From: Candidatus Limnocylindria bacterium
GTDB lineage: Bacteria > Chloroflexota > Limnocylindria > P2-11E
Direction: 5' to 3'
Assembly (NCBI GenBank): GCA_036523395.1
Contig: DATDEH010000002.1
Span: 1 to 52,531 of the forward strand
DNA length: 52,531 nt
The position numbers and the translations under genes are program-made. Shown in pieces: positions 11,341 to 52,531 of the stretch. The notes under the pieces are model-generated. The model searched no databases, had not been told where the DNA came from, and saw only the letters and a program-made list of their open reading frames with translations. Numbering within the stretch: the first letter of the stretch is position 1; every line of letters starts with the position of its first letter.

Positions 11341-12135
11341 CTAGCTCGCGAGACCGATGTCGAACGTCGCGGCGTAGGCGTCGCCGTTCTTCGTGACGTT
11401 CAGGGTCAGCTTGCCGCCGCTCTGCTGGAAGATGCCGTCGGCGGCGTTCCGCGTGACGCCCTGCGTTCCCTTCTGCGAGTACGGCGTCTGCGCGAACACC
11501 TGCGTGTTCAGCGCGTCGTCGAAGAAGAGCTGCGAAGTGAACTCGCTCGAAGACGTCGGACGGATCTTGAAGTGGATGTGCACGGCCCGGCCCTGGTACC
11601 AGCCGGGATAGACCGTGGTGAACTTCGCGCTGCCCGATGCGTCGGTGGTCCGGTAACCGCGCAGGAACTTCTGCCCTCGCGCGTTGTCCACATCGGAGTA
11701 CACGCCGAGCGCGTCGCAGTGCCAGACATCGACGACTGCGCCGCTGAGCGCGGTGCACGCGCTGCCGCTGACCCGCGAGACGAGGAAGTTGAGCGTGAGT
11801 AGGGCGCCGGGTCTCACCGAGCCGGTCCCGGGATCCGAACGGATGTCAGAGCGGTTCAGCTTCTCGTCGACGAAGTACGGACCTTCAGTGAGTGCGGGAC
11901 GCACGATGCATGAAGGCAGCACCGTGGTCGCCGCCGCAGATGCCGCGGCTGCCGCCGTCGCCCCGGCGCTCGTCTGCTGCGCCGCGGCCGTCGGCGATGC
12001 CGACGTGAGCGCACCCGGAGCGCACGCCGCGAGGAGCGCGACGCTCGATCCACCCAGGAGCGCGAGGACCTCTCTGCGGCTCAGGATGCGGCCGACCTGC
12101 GCGTCGTCGTTGTCGATCGCGTGCTGCTCTTTCAG
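11341..12135 (-). CDS. Exported intradiol ring-cleavage dioxygenase (lipoprotein), CTG start
   Basis: The frame codes 264 residues from a CTG at 12135. No ATG, GTG or TTG exists before GTG 11922, yet the codons upstream of that encode a clear Tat-like lipoprotein signal (SRREVLALLGG..., lipobox LLAAC, Cys38) and an Ala/Thr tether, so the start must be upstream. The rest is an intradiol dioxygenase fold of the protocatechuate/catechol 1,2-type: TEGPYFVDEKLNRSD, VDVWHCDALGVYSDV, FLRGYRTTD, and HIHFK with two His. These carry the Tyr/His ligands of the non-heme Fe(III). It would open aromatic diols outside the membrane. It lies 11 bp after YceI, in one transcription unit. Confidence 0.82.
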   Translation of the reverse strand: MKEQHAIDNDDAQVGRILSRREVLALLGGSSVALLAACAPGALTSASPTAAAQQTSAGATAAAAASAAATTVLPSCIVRPALTEGPYFVDEKLNRSDIRSDPGTGSVRPGALLTLNFLVSRVSGSACTALSGAVVDVWHCDALGVYSDVDNARGQKFLRGYRTTDASGSAKFTTVYPGWYQGRAVHIHFKIRPTSSSEFTSQLFFDDALNTQVFAQTPYSQKGTQGVTRNAADGIFQQSGGKLTLNVTKNGDAYAATFDIGLAS

Positions 12136-28369: not shown

Positions 28370-29151
28370 GTGGTCACCCCTTCCCTGATGAGACGCGCGG
28401 TCACGACCGCGCCGATCGCGTACGCAACGACCGCGGCCAGCGCGATCGCGCCGACCAGCGGGATCTGCCAGAGGACGAACAGGATCGTCGCGCCGGCGAG
28501 CACGACGACCGGCGCGGGGAGCTGTGTCTGAAAGCGAGAGAGCGCGCGCGTGCGCAGCAGCGCATCGCCCAGCCGCCACGCGGTGGCGGCGAACCCGACG
28601 AGCAGCGCGAGTAACGCGAAGACGCAGATGACCGCGAACGCGGTCATGCCGACCTGCAACGCGGCCGGCGCGCCGAGAGGCGAATCACGGAGCGCGCCCG
28701 TCACGAAGTTCAGGTAGACGACCCACGCCAGCGCTGCGGTCGAGATCGCCAGACCGATGACGACGAACCCCGCCGCCAGCACCCGTGCCTGCGACCGCCA
28801 GCCGCCAAGCGATGCGCGGTACACCGCGACGACCTGCTCGTTCGCGAGGACGAGCGTCGATGCGGTCAGCAGGAGCGTGAGGAAAAGACCCGCGGCGTCG
28901 CGCGCGGTGTCGGAGATGCCGCGCTGCAGCGGGACGATCGCCTGGAGCGGGCCCCCGACGCGCAGCTGCGCATCGACGATGCTGCGCCCTGGCGGAAGGC
29001 TGTTCCGCGGGTCGAAGAACACGCGTGGCCGCGCGATGGGCTCGGAACTCGATGCCGGCGATGTCGCGGCGGCCCCGACGAACAGGATCGCGCTGAGGCC
29101 GATGGCGACAGCGAGCGTTGCGAGCACGATGACGATGTCGCGCTGCGTCAT
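28366..29151 (-). CDS. Polytopic membrane protein in the sigma/MacAB operon, unknown
   Basis: A 261-residue protein. TM1 (~6-27) leads to a ~55-residue extracytoplasmic segment (RPRVFFDPRNSLPPGRSIVD). Four further hydrophobic segments follow (AGLFLTLLLTASTLVLANE, LAAGFVVIGLAISTAALAW, GMTAFAVICVFALLALLVGF, VVVLAGATILFVLWQIP with a short partner). I recognise no family. ATGA and GTGA 4-bp overlaps tie it between the putative anti-sigma factor and the efflux adaptor, so it is probably a sensor or an accessory of the pump. Confidence 0.75.
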   Translation of the reverse strand: MTQRDIVIVLATLAVAIGLSAILFVGAAATSPASSSEPIARPRVFFDPRNSLPPGRSIVDAQLRVGGPLQAIVPLQRGISDTARDAAGLFLTLLLTASTLVLANEQVVAVYRASLGGWRSQARVLAAGFVVIGLAISTAALAWVVYLNFVTGALRDSPLGAPAALQVGMTAFAVICVFALLALLVGFAATAWRLGDALLRTRALSRFQTQLPAPVVVLAGATILFVLWQIPLVGAIALAAVVAYAIGAVVTARLIREGVTT

Positions 29152-29543
29152 CGGACCAGCCTGCGGCTGCCCGGCGTGCCCGCCATGAGCGCGTGAGCGG
29201 CGAACACGCACCCGACGCCAACGAGCGCCACGGCAAGCACGGTGAGGCCGTCGATGAAGAAGGACGCAGTCGACGTGGTGCTCGACGCCGCCGTGACGAT
29301 GTTGGTCAGCGCCGCTGCGAAGTCCTCACCGCTCTCGGCGAGCTGGCGCGCAAGATACGCGAGGCTCGGGAGAGCGAGCAGTGCGGCGACGAGCCACTCC
29401 CAGCCGACGCGCCGCTCGACGACGCGACGCATCACCGCGTCCCGGAAGCCGAACGGCGGCGCCTGCGGCGGGATCGCCGACAGCACGTACTGGATCTCGC
29501 GCTCCTCCGGCTCGAGGTCGGCCGGTCCCTGTAGTTGGTTCAT
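29148..29543 (-). CDS. Putative membrane anti-sigma factor
   Basis: A 131-residue protein starting one 4-bp overlap (ATGA) after the ECF sigma gene, the usual place for an anti-sigma factor. The ~45-residue cytoplasmic part is acidic then basic (LEPEEREIQYVLSAIPPQAPP, FRDAVMRRVVERRVG). There are two TM segments (~50-68 and ~98-120). The His-x3-Cys-x2-Cys zinc motif of ZAS anti-sigma factors is absent. The role is inferred from position and layout only; no sequence family was recognised. Confidence 0.6.
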   Translation of the reverse strand: MNQLQGPADLEPEEREIQYVLSAIPPQAPPFGFRDAVMRRVVERRVGWEWLVAALLALPSLAYLARQLAESGEDFAAALTNIVTAASSTTSTASFFIDGLTVLAVALVGVGCVFAAHALMAGTPGSRRLVR

Positions 29544-30097
29544 GCCTCTTTCTCCCTCCGCCGCGCCGCGAGGCGCGCCCTCAGCGCGGCGCGCGCCCGA
29601 TGCAGATGTGTCTTCACGGTCCCGAGCGGGATGCCCAGAGTGTCGGCCACCTCTTGATAGGACAGCTGCTGCATATGACGAAGCGTCAGGGCCGCGCGGT
29701 ACGCCGGCGGAAGCTCCGCCATCGCCGCGACCACCTCTGATAGCGCCTCGCGCCGGAGCGCCGATGCCTCGGGTCCGGAATCCTCCGGCTCGGCCGACTC
29801 GGGCAGCTCGTCGACCACGGTCTGGTGCGCGTGCCACCGCTGGACGTGATTCAGGCTCGCGTTGGTGGCGATGCGGTAGATCCAGGGGCCGAAGGACAGT
29901 GCCGGGTCGTATTGATGGAGTGCCTTGTACGCGCGGACGAACGCCTCCTGTGCGCAGTCCGAGGCGGCGTCGGGGTCCCCCGTGATGCGCAGCGCGATGT
30001 TGTACACCCGGCCTCCGTAACGTTCGACAAGCGTGGAGAAGGCGTCGGCATCGCCGGCGAGGCACCGCTGGACGACCTCTTGATCGGTGCGCGTCAG
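29540..30097 (-). CDS. ECF RNA polymerase sigma factor, CTG start
   Basis: A 185-residue sigma-70 family ECF factor. Region 2 spans VQRCLAGDADAFSTLVERYG through SFGPWIYRIATNASLNHVQR; region 4 is LPPAYRAALTLRHMQQLSYQ with EVADTLGIPLGTVKTHLHRA. The first ATG/GTG/TTG in frame is GTG 30007, which would cut off half of region 2. CTG at 30097 restores the canonical N-terminus (TRTDQEVVQRCLAGD) and has GGAGG 7 bases upstream. An in-frame TAA stands at 30142-30140. It heads a seven-gene operon with a putative anti-sigma factor and a MacAB pump, probably an envelope-stress circuit. Confidence 0.88.
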   Translation of the reverse strand: MTRTDQEVVQRCLAGDADAFSTLVERYGGRVYNIALRITGDPDAASDCAQEAFVRAYKALHQYDPALSFGPWIYRIATNASLNHVQRWHAHQTVVDELPESAEPEDSGPEASALRREALSEVVAAMAELPPAYRAALTLRHMQQLSYQEVADTLGIPLGTVKTHLHRARAALRARLAARRREKEA

Positions 30098-30142
30098 CCG
30101 GCGGCCTCCGATGGCTTCCGAGGCCCCCTCCTTACGCGGTTA

Positions 30143-33043: not shown

Positions 33044-33664
33044 CTGCCGCCGATAGGATCCTCGACCACCCACGCGGGTCTCGAGGTCATCGTCGGCTCG
33101 ATGTTCAGCGGAAAGAGCGAGGAGCTCATCCGGCGTATGAAGCGCGCGGTGATCGCGCGCCGTGCCGTGCAGGTCTTCAAGCCCGCCATCGACAGTCGCT
33201 TCAACACCGAGCAGGTGCGTTCGCACGACGGCGACTCGTTCGAGGCGCGTCCGGTCTTGGTGGGCGAGGAGATCCTGCAGCTGATATCGCCGGACACGAC
33301 GGTCGTCGGTATCGACGAGGTGCAGTTCTTCGATCACGCGATCGTCGGCGTGGTGCGCAGGCTGGTGGCGAGCGGCCACCGGGTCATCTGCGCGGGACTC
33401 GACCTGGATTTCCGCGGCGAGCCCTTCGGCCCGGTGCCGACGCTGCTCGCGCTCGCGGAGAAGGTCGACAAGCTCGAAGCGATCTGCGTCGTCTGCGGCG
33501 AAGCTGCCACGCGGACACAGCGGATCGTCAACGGCGTGCCCGCGTTCTACGACGAGCCGATCATCGTCATCGGCGCGAAAGAGACCTACGAGGCGCGCTG
33601 CCGCGGCTGCCACGAAGTGCCGCGCCGCGCCGCCGCGGCGACCGAGGCGGCAAACAGGACGTGA
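33044..33664 (+). CDS. tdk: Thymidine kinase (type II, TK1-like), CTG start
   Basis: The frame codes 206 residues from CTG 33044. It phosphorylates thymidine in the salvage pathway. The P-loop [11 protein letters not shown] (18-28), the [10 protein letters not shown] Walker B/lasso start, [14 protein letters not shown], and the Cys pairs CVVCG and CRGCH of the zinc site are all present. The first ordinary start, ATG 33101, is inside the P-loop and would delete strand 1 (GLEVIVGS) and the first Gly. Between it and the L31 stop the only near-cognate codons are CTG (directly after TAG) and ATA 33053. Start by coupled reinitiation at CTG is my call; readthrough of the L31 TAG is the alternative. 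Confidence 0.9.
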
Positions 33665-45016: not shown

Positions 45017-45898
45017 ATGCGTCAGTACCTCGACATCCTGCGCAAGGCGATCGAGAGCGGCGTCGATCGCGACGATCGCACCGGGACCGGAACGCGCGCG
45101 ATCTTCGGCGAGGTGATGCGCTTCCGGATGAGCGACGGCTTCCCGGCGGTGACGACGAAGCGGCTCGCGTTCCGGTCTGTCCTCGCCGAGCTCCTGTGGT
45201 TCATCGCCGGAAGCTCCGACGTGAACGAGCTGCACGCGCTCGGCACGCACATCTGGGACGGGAACGCGTACGCGCCGTACTGGGTGGAGCGCGCCCGGTT
45301 CGACGGGGATGCCGGGCGGAACTACGGGCAGCAGTGGCGCGATTGGATCGTGGCCGACGGTCGGCACGTCGACCAGCTGCAGGGTGTCATCGACGCGCTG
45401 AGCACGAATCCGTCGAGCCGGCGCCACCTCGTCACGGCGTGGAACCCGGGCGAGCTCGATCAAACGAGCCTGCCCGCCTGCCACGCGTTCTTCCAGTTCT
45501 TCGTGGCCGAGGGAAAGCTGAGCGTGATGATGTATCAGCGCTCCTGCGACCTGTTCCTCGGCGTGCCGTTCAACATCGCGGAGTACGCGGTGCTGCTCCA
45601 TCTCGTCGCGCAGCTCACCGGGCTCGTGCCGGACGAGTTCATCCACGTGCTTGCGGATGCGCACGTCTACCGCGACCACCTGGACGCGGTGCGACAGCAG
45701 CTCGAGCGCGACCCCTATCCGTCGCCGCGTCTCTCACTCGACCCGAGCCTGCGGAGCCTCGATGACGTCGTCGCGCGCTATCGCGAGATCGTGGGCCGGG
45801 CCCGCGCGGGCGAGAAGCCCGGTCCGCTGCTCGACCGCATCGCGCGCCTCGAGCAGTACCAGTTCCATCCGCCGATCGAAGCGAAGATGGCGGTGTAG
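45017..45898 (+). CDS. thyA: Thymidylate synthase
   Basis: A 293-residue ThyA that methylates dUMP to dTMP using methylene-tetrahydrofolate. Catalytic Cys155 is in SLPACHAFFQF; RTGTGTRAIFG, GRNYGQQWRDW, QRSCDLFLGVPFNIAEYA and DAHVYRDHLD are conserved. A ~25-residue insert (YWVERARFDGDAG region) makes it longer than the E. coli form. The ATG lies 3 bp after the serine hydrolase. folA follows by 2 bp, so the dihydrofolate made here is recycled by the product of the same transcript. Confidence 0.97.
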   Translation: MRQYLDILRKAIESGVDRDDRTGTGTRAIFGEVMRFRMSDGFPAVTTKRLAFRSVLAELLWFIAGSSDVNELHALGTHIWDGNAYAPYWVERARFDGDAGRNYGQQWRDWIVADGRHVDQLQGVIDALSTNPSSRRHLVTAWNPGELDQTSLPACHAFFQFFVAEGKLSVMMYQRSCDLFLGVPFNIAEYAVLLHLVAQLTGLVPDEFIHVLADAHVYRDHLDAVRQQLERDPYPSPRLSLDPSLRSLDDVVARYREIVGRARAGEKPGPLLDRIARLEQYQFHPPIEAKMAV

Positions 45899-45900
45899 CG

Positions 45901-46389
45901 ATCATCTCCTTCGTCGTCGCGTACGACCGCAATCGCGCGATCGGGAAGGACAACAAGATCCCCTGGCGACTGCCCGACGACATGAAGCACGTGCGCGACC
46001 TCACGATCGGCAAACCGCTCATCATGGGGCGACGCACGTGGGAGTCGATCGGTCGGCCTCTTCCGCAGCGCACCAGCATCGTGCTGACGCGCGACCCGGG
46101 ATTCAAATGCGACGGCTGCCTCATCGCGCGCACGCCCGACGAGGCGATGGAACTGGCTGGCGCGGCGCCAGAGATCATCGTCTTCGGCGGCGCGCGCGTA
46201 TTCGAGGACTTCCTGGCGCGCGCCGATCGCATCTACCTCACCGAGGTGGACGCCGATGTCGGCGGCGACACCTTCTTCCCGCCGCTCGATCCCGGCGACT
46301 GGGAAGTGATCGAGGCGGTGGGGCACCCCGCCGATGAGCGCCACCCGTACGACTTCAGCTTTCTCACGCTCGATCGCAAGCGGAAGTGA
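45901..46389 (+). CDS. folA: Dihydrofolate reductase, ATC start
   Basis: A 162-residue enzyme that regenerates tetrahydrofolate. The frame must start at ATC 45901: ISFVVAYDRNRAIGKDNKIP aligns with the standard N-terminus (MISLIAA... in E. coli), and no ATG, GTG or TTG occurs in frame between the thyA coding region and ATG 45982, which would delete strand A, the Met20-loop region and the catalytic Asp. Other marks are WRLPDDMKH (active-site Asp), MGRRTWESIGRPLPQR and VFGGARVFEDF. It lies 2 bp after thyA, so translation is probably coupled. A sequencing error at the first codon is the alternative. Confidence 0.92.
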   Translation: MISFVVAYDRNRAIGKDNKIPWRLPDDMKHVRDLTIGKPLIMGRRTWESIGRPLPQRTSIVLTRDPGFKCDGCLIARTPDEAMELAGAAPEIIVFGGARVFEDFLARADRIYLTEVDADVGGDTFFPPLDPGDWEVIEAVGHPADERHPYDFSFLTLDRKRK

Positions 46390-50490: not shown

Positions 50491-51636
50491 ATGGACACCG
50501 CGCTCCCCGAAGATATCCGTCTCCTGCAGCGCACCGTTCGCGCCTTCGTCGATGAGGTCCTAGCGCCGTGTGCGAAGGAGATCGAAGAGAAGGACGAGAT
50601 CCCGCGCGCGCTCATCGCGAAGATGGGCGAGGCCGGGCTGTTCGGCATCGGTCACGCCGAGGAGCTGGGCGGTCAGGGATTCGGGAAGCTCGGCTACTGC
50701 GTGGCGGTCGAACAGCTCGCGCGCGTTAACGCCTCGCTGTGGAACATCGTCGGTGGATCCGCCGGTCTGTGTGGGACCGCGATCTCGGTCGGCGGACCGG
50801 ATGACGTGCGCCTCCGTTATCTTCCCGACCTCTTCAGCGGCCGAAAGGTCGGCGCCTACGCGCTGTCCGAGCCCGGCGCGGGCAGCGACGCGGGGAGCCT
50901 CAAGGCGGTCGCGCGCCGCGATGGCGACGCCTACGTCCTCGATGGCGCGAAGACCTTCATCACCAACGCGCCGATCGCCGACGTGTTCGTGATCTTCGCG
51001 AATGCGGCGCCCGCCACCGGCTCGAAGGGCATCACCGCATTCGCCGTCGAGCGCGGCGCGGAGGGTCTCGACATTGGACCGAACGACGAGAAGATGGGCC
51101 TGCATGGATCGACGACCGCGCAGCTGTACCTCAACGGCCTGCGCGTTCCCGCGTCGCAACGCGTCGGCGAGGAGGGCGACGGATTCAAGATCGCGCTGCG
51201 CACGCTCGACTTCGGCCGGCTGGGCCTCGCCGCGCATTCGGTCGGCGCCGCGCAGCGACTGCTCGAGGCCTCCGTGGACTACGCGAAGACGCGCACGCAG
51301 TTCGGAAAGCCGATCGGCGCGAACCAGGCGATCCAGTGGATGCTGGCGGACGCCGCCACCGAGATCCACGCCGCGCGGCTGATGGTGCACGACGCGGCGT
51401 CGCGGGCCGACCGCGGAGAACGCGTCAGCGACCGCGCGTCGATGGCCAAGCTCTTCGCGACCGAGATGCTCGGTCGTGTCGCGGACGCCGCGGTCCAGAT
51501 CCACGGCGGCATGGGCTACATGCGCGAGCTATGGATCGAACGCGCCTACCGCGACGCGCGCATCACCCGGATCTACGAGGGGACGAGCGAGATCCAGCGC
51601 GTCGTCATCGCTGGCGCGCTCCTGGCGGACAGCTGA
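50491..51636 (+). CDS. Acyl-CoA dehydrogenase
   Basis: A 381-residue FAD enzyme that introduces the alpha-beta double bond in acyl-CoA. Marks are YALSEPGAGSDAGSLKAVA, the DEKMGLHGSTTAQLYLN beta domain, TRTQFGKPIGANQAIQWMLA, AAVQIHGGMGYMRELWIERA and the C-terminal RITRIYEGTSEIQRVVI, which contains the catalytic Glu. Full length for short- or medium-chain or branched acyl-CoA dehydrogenases. An electron-transfer flavoprotein must be elsewhere. Its TGA overlaps the next gene's CTG by 4 bp. Confidence 0.95.
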   Translation: MDTALPEDIRLLQRTVRAFVDEVLAPCAKEIEEKDEIPRALIAKMGEAGLFGIGHAEELGGQGFGKLGYCVAVEQLARVNASLWNIVGGSAGLCGTAISVGGPDDVRLRYLPDLFSGRKVGAYALSEPGAGSDAGSLKAVARRDGDAYVLDGAKTFITNAPIADVFVIFANAAPATGSKGITAFAVERGAEGLDIGPNDEKMGLHGSTTAQLYLNGLRVPASQRVGEEGDGFKIALRTLDFGRLGLAAHSVGAAQRLLEASVDYAKTRTQFGKPIGANQAIQWMLADAATEIHAARLMVHDAASRADRGERVSDRASMAKLFATEMLGRVADAAVQIHGGMGYMRELWIERAYRDARITRIYEGTSEIQRVVIAGALLADS

Positions 51637-52496
51637 GACCGGTCACGCCGGGCGGCCACCCGCTCATCACCGCGCTCTGGCTGCTCGGTGTCGTCGCCGC
51701 GGTGCTCGCCTTCGTCGCGGCGATCGTTGGCGCGGGTGCGACCGCGGCCGTGCTCTCGCTGGCCGCCCTCGTGGCATTCGTCGCCGGTTCCATCGCTTTC
51801 CAGCAGCGACTACGGCGCTTCAGCGCGACGCTCGTCGCGGTCGAGGAGGCGCTCGACGCCGACGACGTGCGACGCGCGCGCGAGCTCATGGCGCCGCTGC
51901 TGGCGCGATTCCACACCTTCCCGATGGTCCAAGAGGTCGCAGCCGACGTGCTCTACGCGGCCGGCGATCCACTCTCCGCCGCCTCGCTCTGGGAATCGGC
52001 GATGAAGCAGCTCGGTGCGACACGCGTGGCGCCGCGCCTCGTCGCGGCCTACGCCGCGCTCAACCGGGGAGGCGACGCGCGCCGCGTCGCGGCGCTGGTG
52101 CCGAACGAGCCGCTCGCGGACCTCGCGCTCGCGTGGAGCGAGCTCGCGGCGAACGGTGGCGATCGCGAGCACGGCGCCGTCCTCGCCGGCGAGCTCATGC
52201 GCGACGTGGAGCAGTCTCCGAACGCGACGATCGCGGCCATGACCGGGGCCGTCGCGGCGATCGCGGACGCACAGCGTGGCGATCGCGCCGGGATGCAGGT
52301 GAAGCTCGAGGCGATGCGGCGCGCCACGCCGACACAGAGCGACGCCGCGTTCCTGGGTTATCTCGCCGGCGTTGCGCTGCGCGACGTTGGGGACATCGAC
52401 GAGGCGCGCCGCGAATTCGGCGCCGCGGTCGAACGGTCACCCGAGTCGATCGGCGGCGCGCTCGCGCGTCGCGAGCGCGCGAACCTCCCGACCTAG
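51633..52496 (+). CDS. TPR-like membrane-anchored protein, CTG start
   Basis: A 287-residue protein. Two hydrophobic segments (~14-34 and ~36-54) are followed by Ala/Arg-rich paired helices of TPR or Sel1 style (VEEALDADDVRRARELMAPL, EVAADVLYAAGDPLSAASLW). The only plausible start in frame is CTG 51633, which overlaps the acyl-CoA dehydrogenase stop exactly as CTGA, matching the ATGA/GTGA/TTGA junctions elsewhere here. The next ATG upstream is 105 bases back inside the dehydrogenase. No specific family; likely a scaffold at the membrane. Its TAG shares CTAG with a convergent gene. Confidence 0.7.
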   Translation: MRPVTPGGHPLITALWLLGVVAAVLAFVAAIVGAGATAAVLSLAALVAFVAGSIAFQQRLRRFSATLVAVEEALDADDVRRARELMAPLLARFHTFPMVQEVAADVLYAAGDPLSAASLWESAMKQLGATRVAPRLVAAYAALNRGGDARRVAALVPNEPLADLALAWSELAANGGDREHGAVLAGELMRDVEQSPNATIAAMTGAVAAIADAQRGDRAGMQVKLEAMRRATPTQSDAAFLGYLAGVALRDVGDIDEARREFGAAVERSPESIGGALARRERANLPT

Positions 52497-52531
52497 AGCT
52501 TCGCTTCGCGCAGCGTCGCGAGGAATCCGGC
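52493..52531 (-). CDS. 3' end of a convergent gene (partial)
   Basis: The minus strand reads AGFLATLREAKL then TAG at 52495-52493, an open frame to the window edge. Its stop shares the palindrome CTAG with the stop of the plus-strand gene, the same arrangement as at 15840-15843. Too short to identify. Confidence 0.45.
   Translation of the reverse strand, partial: AGFLATLREAKL

Follow-up and report, generated by a model that had tools for sequence, protein, structure and literature searches.

The junction at positions 51633-51636 of the window, by which we mean the whole 52,531-nt stretch of Candidatus Limnocylindria DNA analysed here, raises the question of whether a bacterial gene begins at CTG where it overlaps the stop codon of its neighbor, and whether such starts are a habit of the lineage. 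The first-pass annotation had answered yes to both and proposed a general relaxation of start selection. The elements at issue are the following.

50491..51636, plus strand: acyl-CoA dehydrogenase gene (open frame; identity from the translation)
51531..51533, plus strand: ATG within the dehydrogenase gene, in frame with the gene that follows and a conceivable but improbable start for it
51633..51635, plus strand: focal CTG, by descent an internal Leu codon, at present the most likely start codon of the gene that follows
51633..52496, plus strand: downstream gene (open frame); product hydrophobic in two stretches near the N-terminus, weak TPR match
51702..51704, plus strand: GTG, first in-frame standard codon 3' of the focal CTG, within the first hydrophobic stretch

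The geometry is as described: the dehydrogenase stop (TGA, 51634-51636) shares bases with a CTG (51633-51635) in the open frame that follows. No standard codon lies close upstream in this frame, the nearest being ATG 51531, 102 nt away and inside the dehydrogenase gene. The protein encoded by 51633-52496 matches Pfam TPR_2 below the cut-off, and the GTG at 51702 is an unlikely start. At its 3' end the gene overlaps a tRNA-Ala (cgc) predicted by ARAGORN on the minus strand (window 52431-52502). It is very improbable that translation begins at ATG 51531, which is the sole standard in-frame codon near the gene but would add a 34-residue extension running across the dehydrogenase frame. This extension is a shifted frame of a conserved dehydrogenase, its region matches many unrelated dehydrogenases and, in relatives, stops or a spacer part it from the gene.

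The junction was compared with that of relatives, all of them draft metagenome assemblies of Chloroflexi/Chloroflexota, mostly from soil, in which single-codon errors are possible but the same error in many genomes is not expected. Seven (G001, G002, G004, G005, G006, G007, and G012) carry a spacer of ~100-140 nt between the two genes with, in every case, three DnaA-box-like motifs (TGTGGATAA and its variants); no such three-box spacer is present at this junction in the window. In these relatives the downstream gene has in-frame GTG codons within the spacer, and a pair of GTG codons adjoining the CTG is near-universal. In G002 the frame reads GTG GAT AAA AGG GCT GTG CTG AGA GCG GTC, and the other spacer-bearing genomes differ little from it; G005 has GTA CTA where G002 has its second GTG and the CTG, so that relatives have either GTG CTG AGA GCG or GTA CTA AGA CCG at the position of the window CTG. 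The spacer of G009 is also short; its ATG lies three codons (9 nt) past the place that aligns with the CTG. Since the window lacks the spacer, it has lost both GTG codons that could serve as starts, and its CTG derives from what was a Leu codon within the gene; the focal case is therefore no evidence for CTG as an inherited start. Orthologue alignment at 51633, which the first-pass annotation had itself suggested, places ordinary in-frame starts elsewhere, namely at GTG codons in the spacer lost from the window, contrary to an inherited CTG start. The 51633 junction is the weakest of the CTG cases put forward, and the focal CTG, provided that the sequence is right, is a makeshift start.

The ancestral gene would have been preceded by GTG codons in its own frame, including one within a DnaA box of the spacer that follows the dehydrogenase. 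Loss of ~110 nt of this spacer between two GCTGA copies, in the window genome or in its assembly, would then have brought the internal Leu codon to the stop of the dehydrogenase gene; the junction sequence is compatible with such a deletion. If the sequence is right, ribosomes that have just terminated at the overlapping TGA probably start at the focal CTG. We consider it rather unlikely that the spacer is missing through an assembly or strain-mixture error and that the true start is GTG as in the relatives. The three-box spacer kept in seven of them, the two GTG codons adjoining the CTG in nearly all spacer-bearing relatives and the draft nature of the contig, which ends ~900 nt beyond the junction, would all fit such an error, but the breakpoint repeat, of only ~5 nt, is too short for assembly collapse and G009 is likewise short-spaced, its ATG lying 9 nt downstream. 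A search of the window genome for a second copy of the spacer, by means of the DnaA-box pair pattern, matched only the dnaA-dnaN region, which also speaks against an artefact. The DnaA-box pair between dnaA and dnaN (G000:C93:6618-6647) marks a region that is likely the replication origin of the window genome. The three-box cluster conserved in the seven relatives lies away from dnaA-dnaN and is absent at window position 51636; it might serve titration or reloading of DnaA.

The first-pass annotation had also read CTGA as completing a series of stop-start overlaps with ATGA, GTGA, and TTGA. Within 656 kb of the window genome, 4-nt overlap junctions amount to 49 GTGA, 44 ATGA, 14 TTGA, and 20 CTGA. 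CTGA junctions do exist, but ~11 of the 20 are really TGATG, with an ATG immediately after, and the CTG-only ones are a handful (51633, C5:30855, C10:36465, and C109:8864), one or two of them doubtful. The bare CTGA count was dropped as evidence for CTG starts because the majority are TGATG.

Four further starts in the window had been named as non-standard, and they were compared with those of orthologues at the aligned column.

29540..30097, minus strand: ECF sigma factor gene, CTG start at 30097-30095 (Pfam Sigma70_r2 and r4_2; orthologue column)
30105..30109, minus strand: GGAGG Shine-Dalgarno (SD) motif, 7 nt upstream of the sigma CTG, kept in nearly all CTG members
29148..29543, minus strand: small gene in ATGA overlap with the sigma stop, candidate anti-sigma by position only
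33044..33664, plus strand: thymidine kinase gene (tdk), CTG start right after the rpmE TAG (Pfam TK; orthologue column)
11341..12135, minus strand: intradiol-dioxygenase-like gene, CTG start (Pfam Dioxygenase_C; orthologue column)
45895..46389, plus strand: folA (Pfam DHFR_1; column comparison), with GTA 45895, ATC 45901, and ATC 45904 as candidate starts

The CTG start of the sigma gene (30097) is strongly supported. CTG occupies this column, which precedes a conserved TDQE/SDQD motif, in 14 of ~19 family genomes, and nearly all 14 have GGAGG 7-8 nt before the codon; the remaining genomes have ATG, GTG, or TTG, some at neighboring columns, and G003 reads CTG ATG. The small gene at 29148..29543 on the minus strand gave no Pfam match. 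For tdk, CTG follows the rpmE TAG in four congeners (G000, G004, G003, and G001) and in G022 and G023 this position is GTG, which supports the CTG start at 33044. Similarly, the dioxygenase start (12135) aligns with ATG in G002 and with CTG preceded by AGGAG in G008, and is supported as well. In the case of folA, relatives use a GTG or TTG that overlaps the thyA stop, and the window codon there is GTA (45895); no standard codon occurs in the start region of G003, as in the window. Because the aligned ancestral start codon is GTA in the window, folA is a doubtful case, with ATC 45901 and ATC 45904 as the other candidate starts.

A codon-usage gene finder, run on the 656 kb of the window genome, flagged further genes without a standard codon near the coding boundary, and comparison bears out several of them. 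The start column of a B12-binding mutase subunit, directly before an invariant KRPIR, is NTG in 25 of 25 genomes (ATG 9, TTG 7, GTG 6, CTG 3), whereas internal Leu, Val, and Met codons here are NTG in only 41% of cases; outside the family the gene has ATG in 12 of 12 genomes. A DnaQ-like exonuclease gene has CTG in most genomes, ATA in two, and GTG or ATG in a few. Start switches between CTG and ATG or GTG were observed between the window genome and G002 or G001, as at C25:8787 (ATG in G002) and C109:28912 (GTG in G002), both CTG in the window genome. The infC start is ATA in all 19 family genomes compared.

The most telling start is that of alaS, which among 25 genomes is CTG in 6, ATG in 6, ATA in 5, ATC in 4, ACG in 2, and GTC and GTA in one each, the last two being poor start candidates by pairing. 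It is therefore non-standard in 19 of the 25, while the residues that follow are conserved as protein. The alaS tree requires at least 13 start-codon changes and at least 3 crossings of the line between standard and non-standard codons, and GTG or TTG was never seen as the alaS start in the 25 family genomes; the distant alaS genes, those that could be read, all start at ATG, GTG, or TTG. An SD-like motif precedes 17 of the 19 non-standard starts. The ATG members lack this motif and most non-standard members have it, an association with p = 1.6e-4 by simple count that is confounded by clade, with only 2-3 independent contrasts, and for that reason it was not taken as proof.

Near-cognate starts thus appear to recur in the lineage, as the first-pass annotation had claimed, although the gene that prompted the claim has no inherited one. 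The column alternates with standard codons in the sigma, tdk, dioxygenase, mutase subunit, alaS, and exonuclease genes, and infC, with ATA throughout, is a further case; at 51633 there is no such alternation, the CTG column being an internal Leu codon. A strong SD motif at normal spacing accompanies the sigma start, most alaS starts and, in part, infC, and is not evident for tdk, the mutase subunit, or the exonuclease gene. As a class, the near-cognate start is kept in infC (ATA in 19 of 19), in alaS (19 of 25, with few crossings), and in sigma (mostly CTG).

As a proportion of such genes, the five of about 53 first proposed is high. Comparison with G001 or G002 was possible for 182 genes. A standard start column is shared in 135 of them; the other 47 were read by eye, and this unblinded review left ~10 likely non-standard starts in the window genome. 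An automated caller gave 7 of 182, against 2 of 223 in a control pair of Sinorhizobium (alphaproteobacterial) megaplasmids, which belong to another phylum and have diverged less (p = 0.085). The standard start column was shared by 77% of gene pairs as compared to 90% in the control, where no clear switches between standard and non-standard starts were found. A genome-wide excess of near-cognate starts over the control is suggestive only. When SD enrichment was measured codon by codon across all genes, ATG, GTG, and TTG were recovered but CTG was not, since SD use is sparse in the window genome. In G001 the simple gene finder followed shadow frames, and the intrinsic counts of this genome were therefore left out. 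A start-codon substitution spectrum based on automatic column choice was noisy, some CTG calls being internal Leu codons or poor alignments, and was discarded.

From orthologue columns and ribosome-binding sites we infer that the near-cognate positions are starts, and several conserved genes of this family of uncultured Chloroflexota, essential ones included, seem to begin at weak codons: CTG, ATA, ATC, ACG, and seldom GTC or GTA. One group (sigma, alaS, and infC) has a strong GGAGG at the usual distance, and another (tdk, the mutase subunit, and LysE) lies at the stop of the upstream gene. The initiator tRNA would still pair at the near-cognate codon and IF3 would disfavor the mismatch, so that protein output may be held low and sensitive to IF3 or to the state of the ribosome, as analogy with infC and Streptomyces sigR, for which this has been shown, suggests. 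The weak starts thus probably serve to limit protein amount, and IF3-limited initiation would be the best model for these genes. Taken as a whole, we regard as probable an explanation in two layers, that is, a deletion at the focal site and, apart from it, near-cognate starts across the family that are limited through IF3. More tentatively, alaS, the ECF sigma gene, and others could form an IF3-sensitive regulon of the family, in which the weakness of the start is selected while the codon itself drifts.

Generally relaxed start selection, as first proposed, would instead make CTG, ATA, ATC, and ACG ordinary, drifting starts through changes in IF3, the initiator tRNA, or the ribosome. Free drift of the mutase column across all four NTG codons, the several unrelated genes affected and the lower sharing of standard columns than in the control (77% versus 90%) would be expected from it, yet we judge it improbable. 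Turnover of the alaS codon without GTG or TTG, and with few crossings of the line, suggests that the start is kept weak; were near-cognate codons equal to standard ones, GTG and TTG would be expected there, and none occurs. With at least 13 codon changes in a start that stays non-standard, the alaS pattern suggests selection for a weak start rather than relaxed selection. The majority of genes still use ATG, GTG, or TTG, and infC, whose inspection had been recommended, is fixed at ATA and encodes an IF3 that keeps both domains and aligns along its length with solved IF3 structures. The initiator tRNA of the congener G002, read from the sequence, is likewise typical: C1-A72 is unpaired, as is usual, and the anticodon stem has its three G-C pairs. 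The IF3 protein (L001, 1201-2004, minus strand) also has an Ala/Pro-rich C-terminal tail that runs ~95 residues past the usual end.

It is doubtful, too, that near-cognate starts are equally common in many high-GC bacteria and escape annotation everywhere, which would leave nothing special in this lineage. Gene callers do exclude CTG, the GTC start of sigR is misannotated in all Streptomyces genomes (PMC5472188), and the difference from our control pair is not significant. Against this, the alaS and mutase genes have standard starts outside the family, the control pair gave no clear switches, and the published rate of switches to CUG, itself dependent on annotation, is ~3e-5 to 4e-4 per start (PMC5622118). 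The combination of a focal deletion with family-wide, IF3-limited weak starts remains our preferred reading.

Start-site prediction presumes ATG, GTG, or TTG. If several conserved genes across a whole family, the essential alaS among them, begin otherwise, their N-termini are annotated wrongly and a level of translational regulation goes unseen. The alaS column, in which weakness is kept and the codon is not, makes selection on start strength directly testable. Among the open-licence papers searched we found no report of a family-wide near-cognate set that includes alaS with a drifting start codon.

Near-cognate starts are known in single conserved genes, and infC is autoregulated through a non-AUG start, AUU in E. 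coli. Evolutionary reconstruction of ~69,000 starts revealed few switches to CUG (PMC5622118). The infC gene of S. aureus starts at AUA (PMC13009471), and that of the family, with ATA throughout, is an ordinary member of this known pattern. Streptomyces sigR, which starts at GTC and is repressed by IF3 (PMC5472188), resembles the sigma gene of the window in being a sigma gene whose near-cognate start is conserved across many species and closely preceded by a strong SD motif, and whose stop is coupled to a small gene; it differs in that the family gene uses CTG in a Chloroflexota host, its downstream partner is a candidate anti-sigma by position, and control by IF3 is proposed by analogy. At the focal site, the mutase subunit, and LysE, the 4-nt overlap has the geometry of NTGA termination-reinitiation coupling, with CTG in place of ATG, GTG, or TTG. 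For S. aureus ccpN (AUA) and cvfC1 (AUU), which have an extended SD motif, IF3-limited initiation has been proposed (PMC13009471). They share with alaS of the family a conserved weak start plus a strong SD motif, whereas alaS stays non-standard while its codon varies among CTG, ATA, ATC, ACG, GTC, and GTA.
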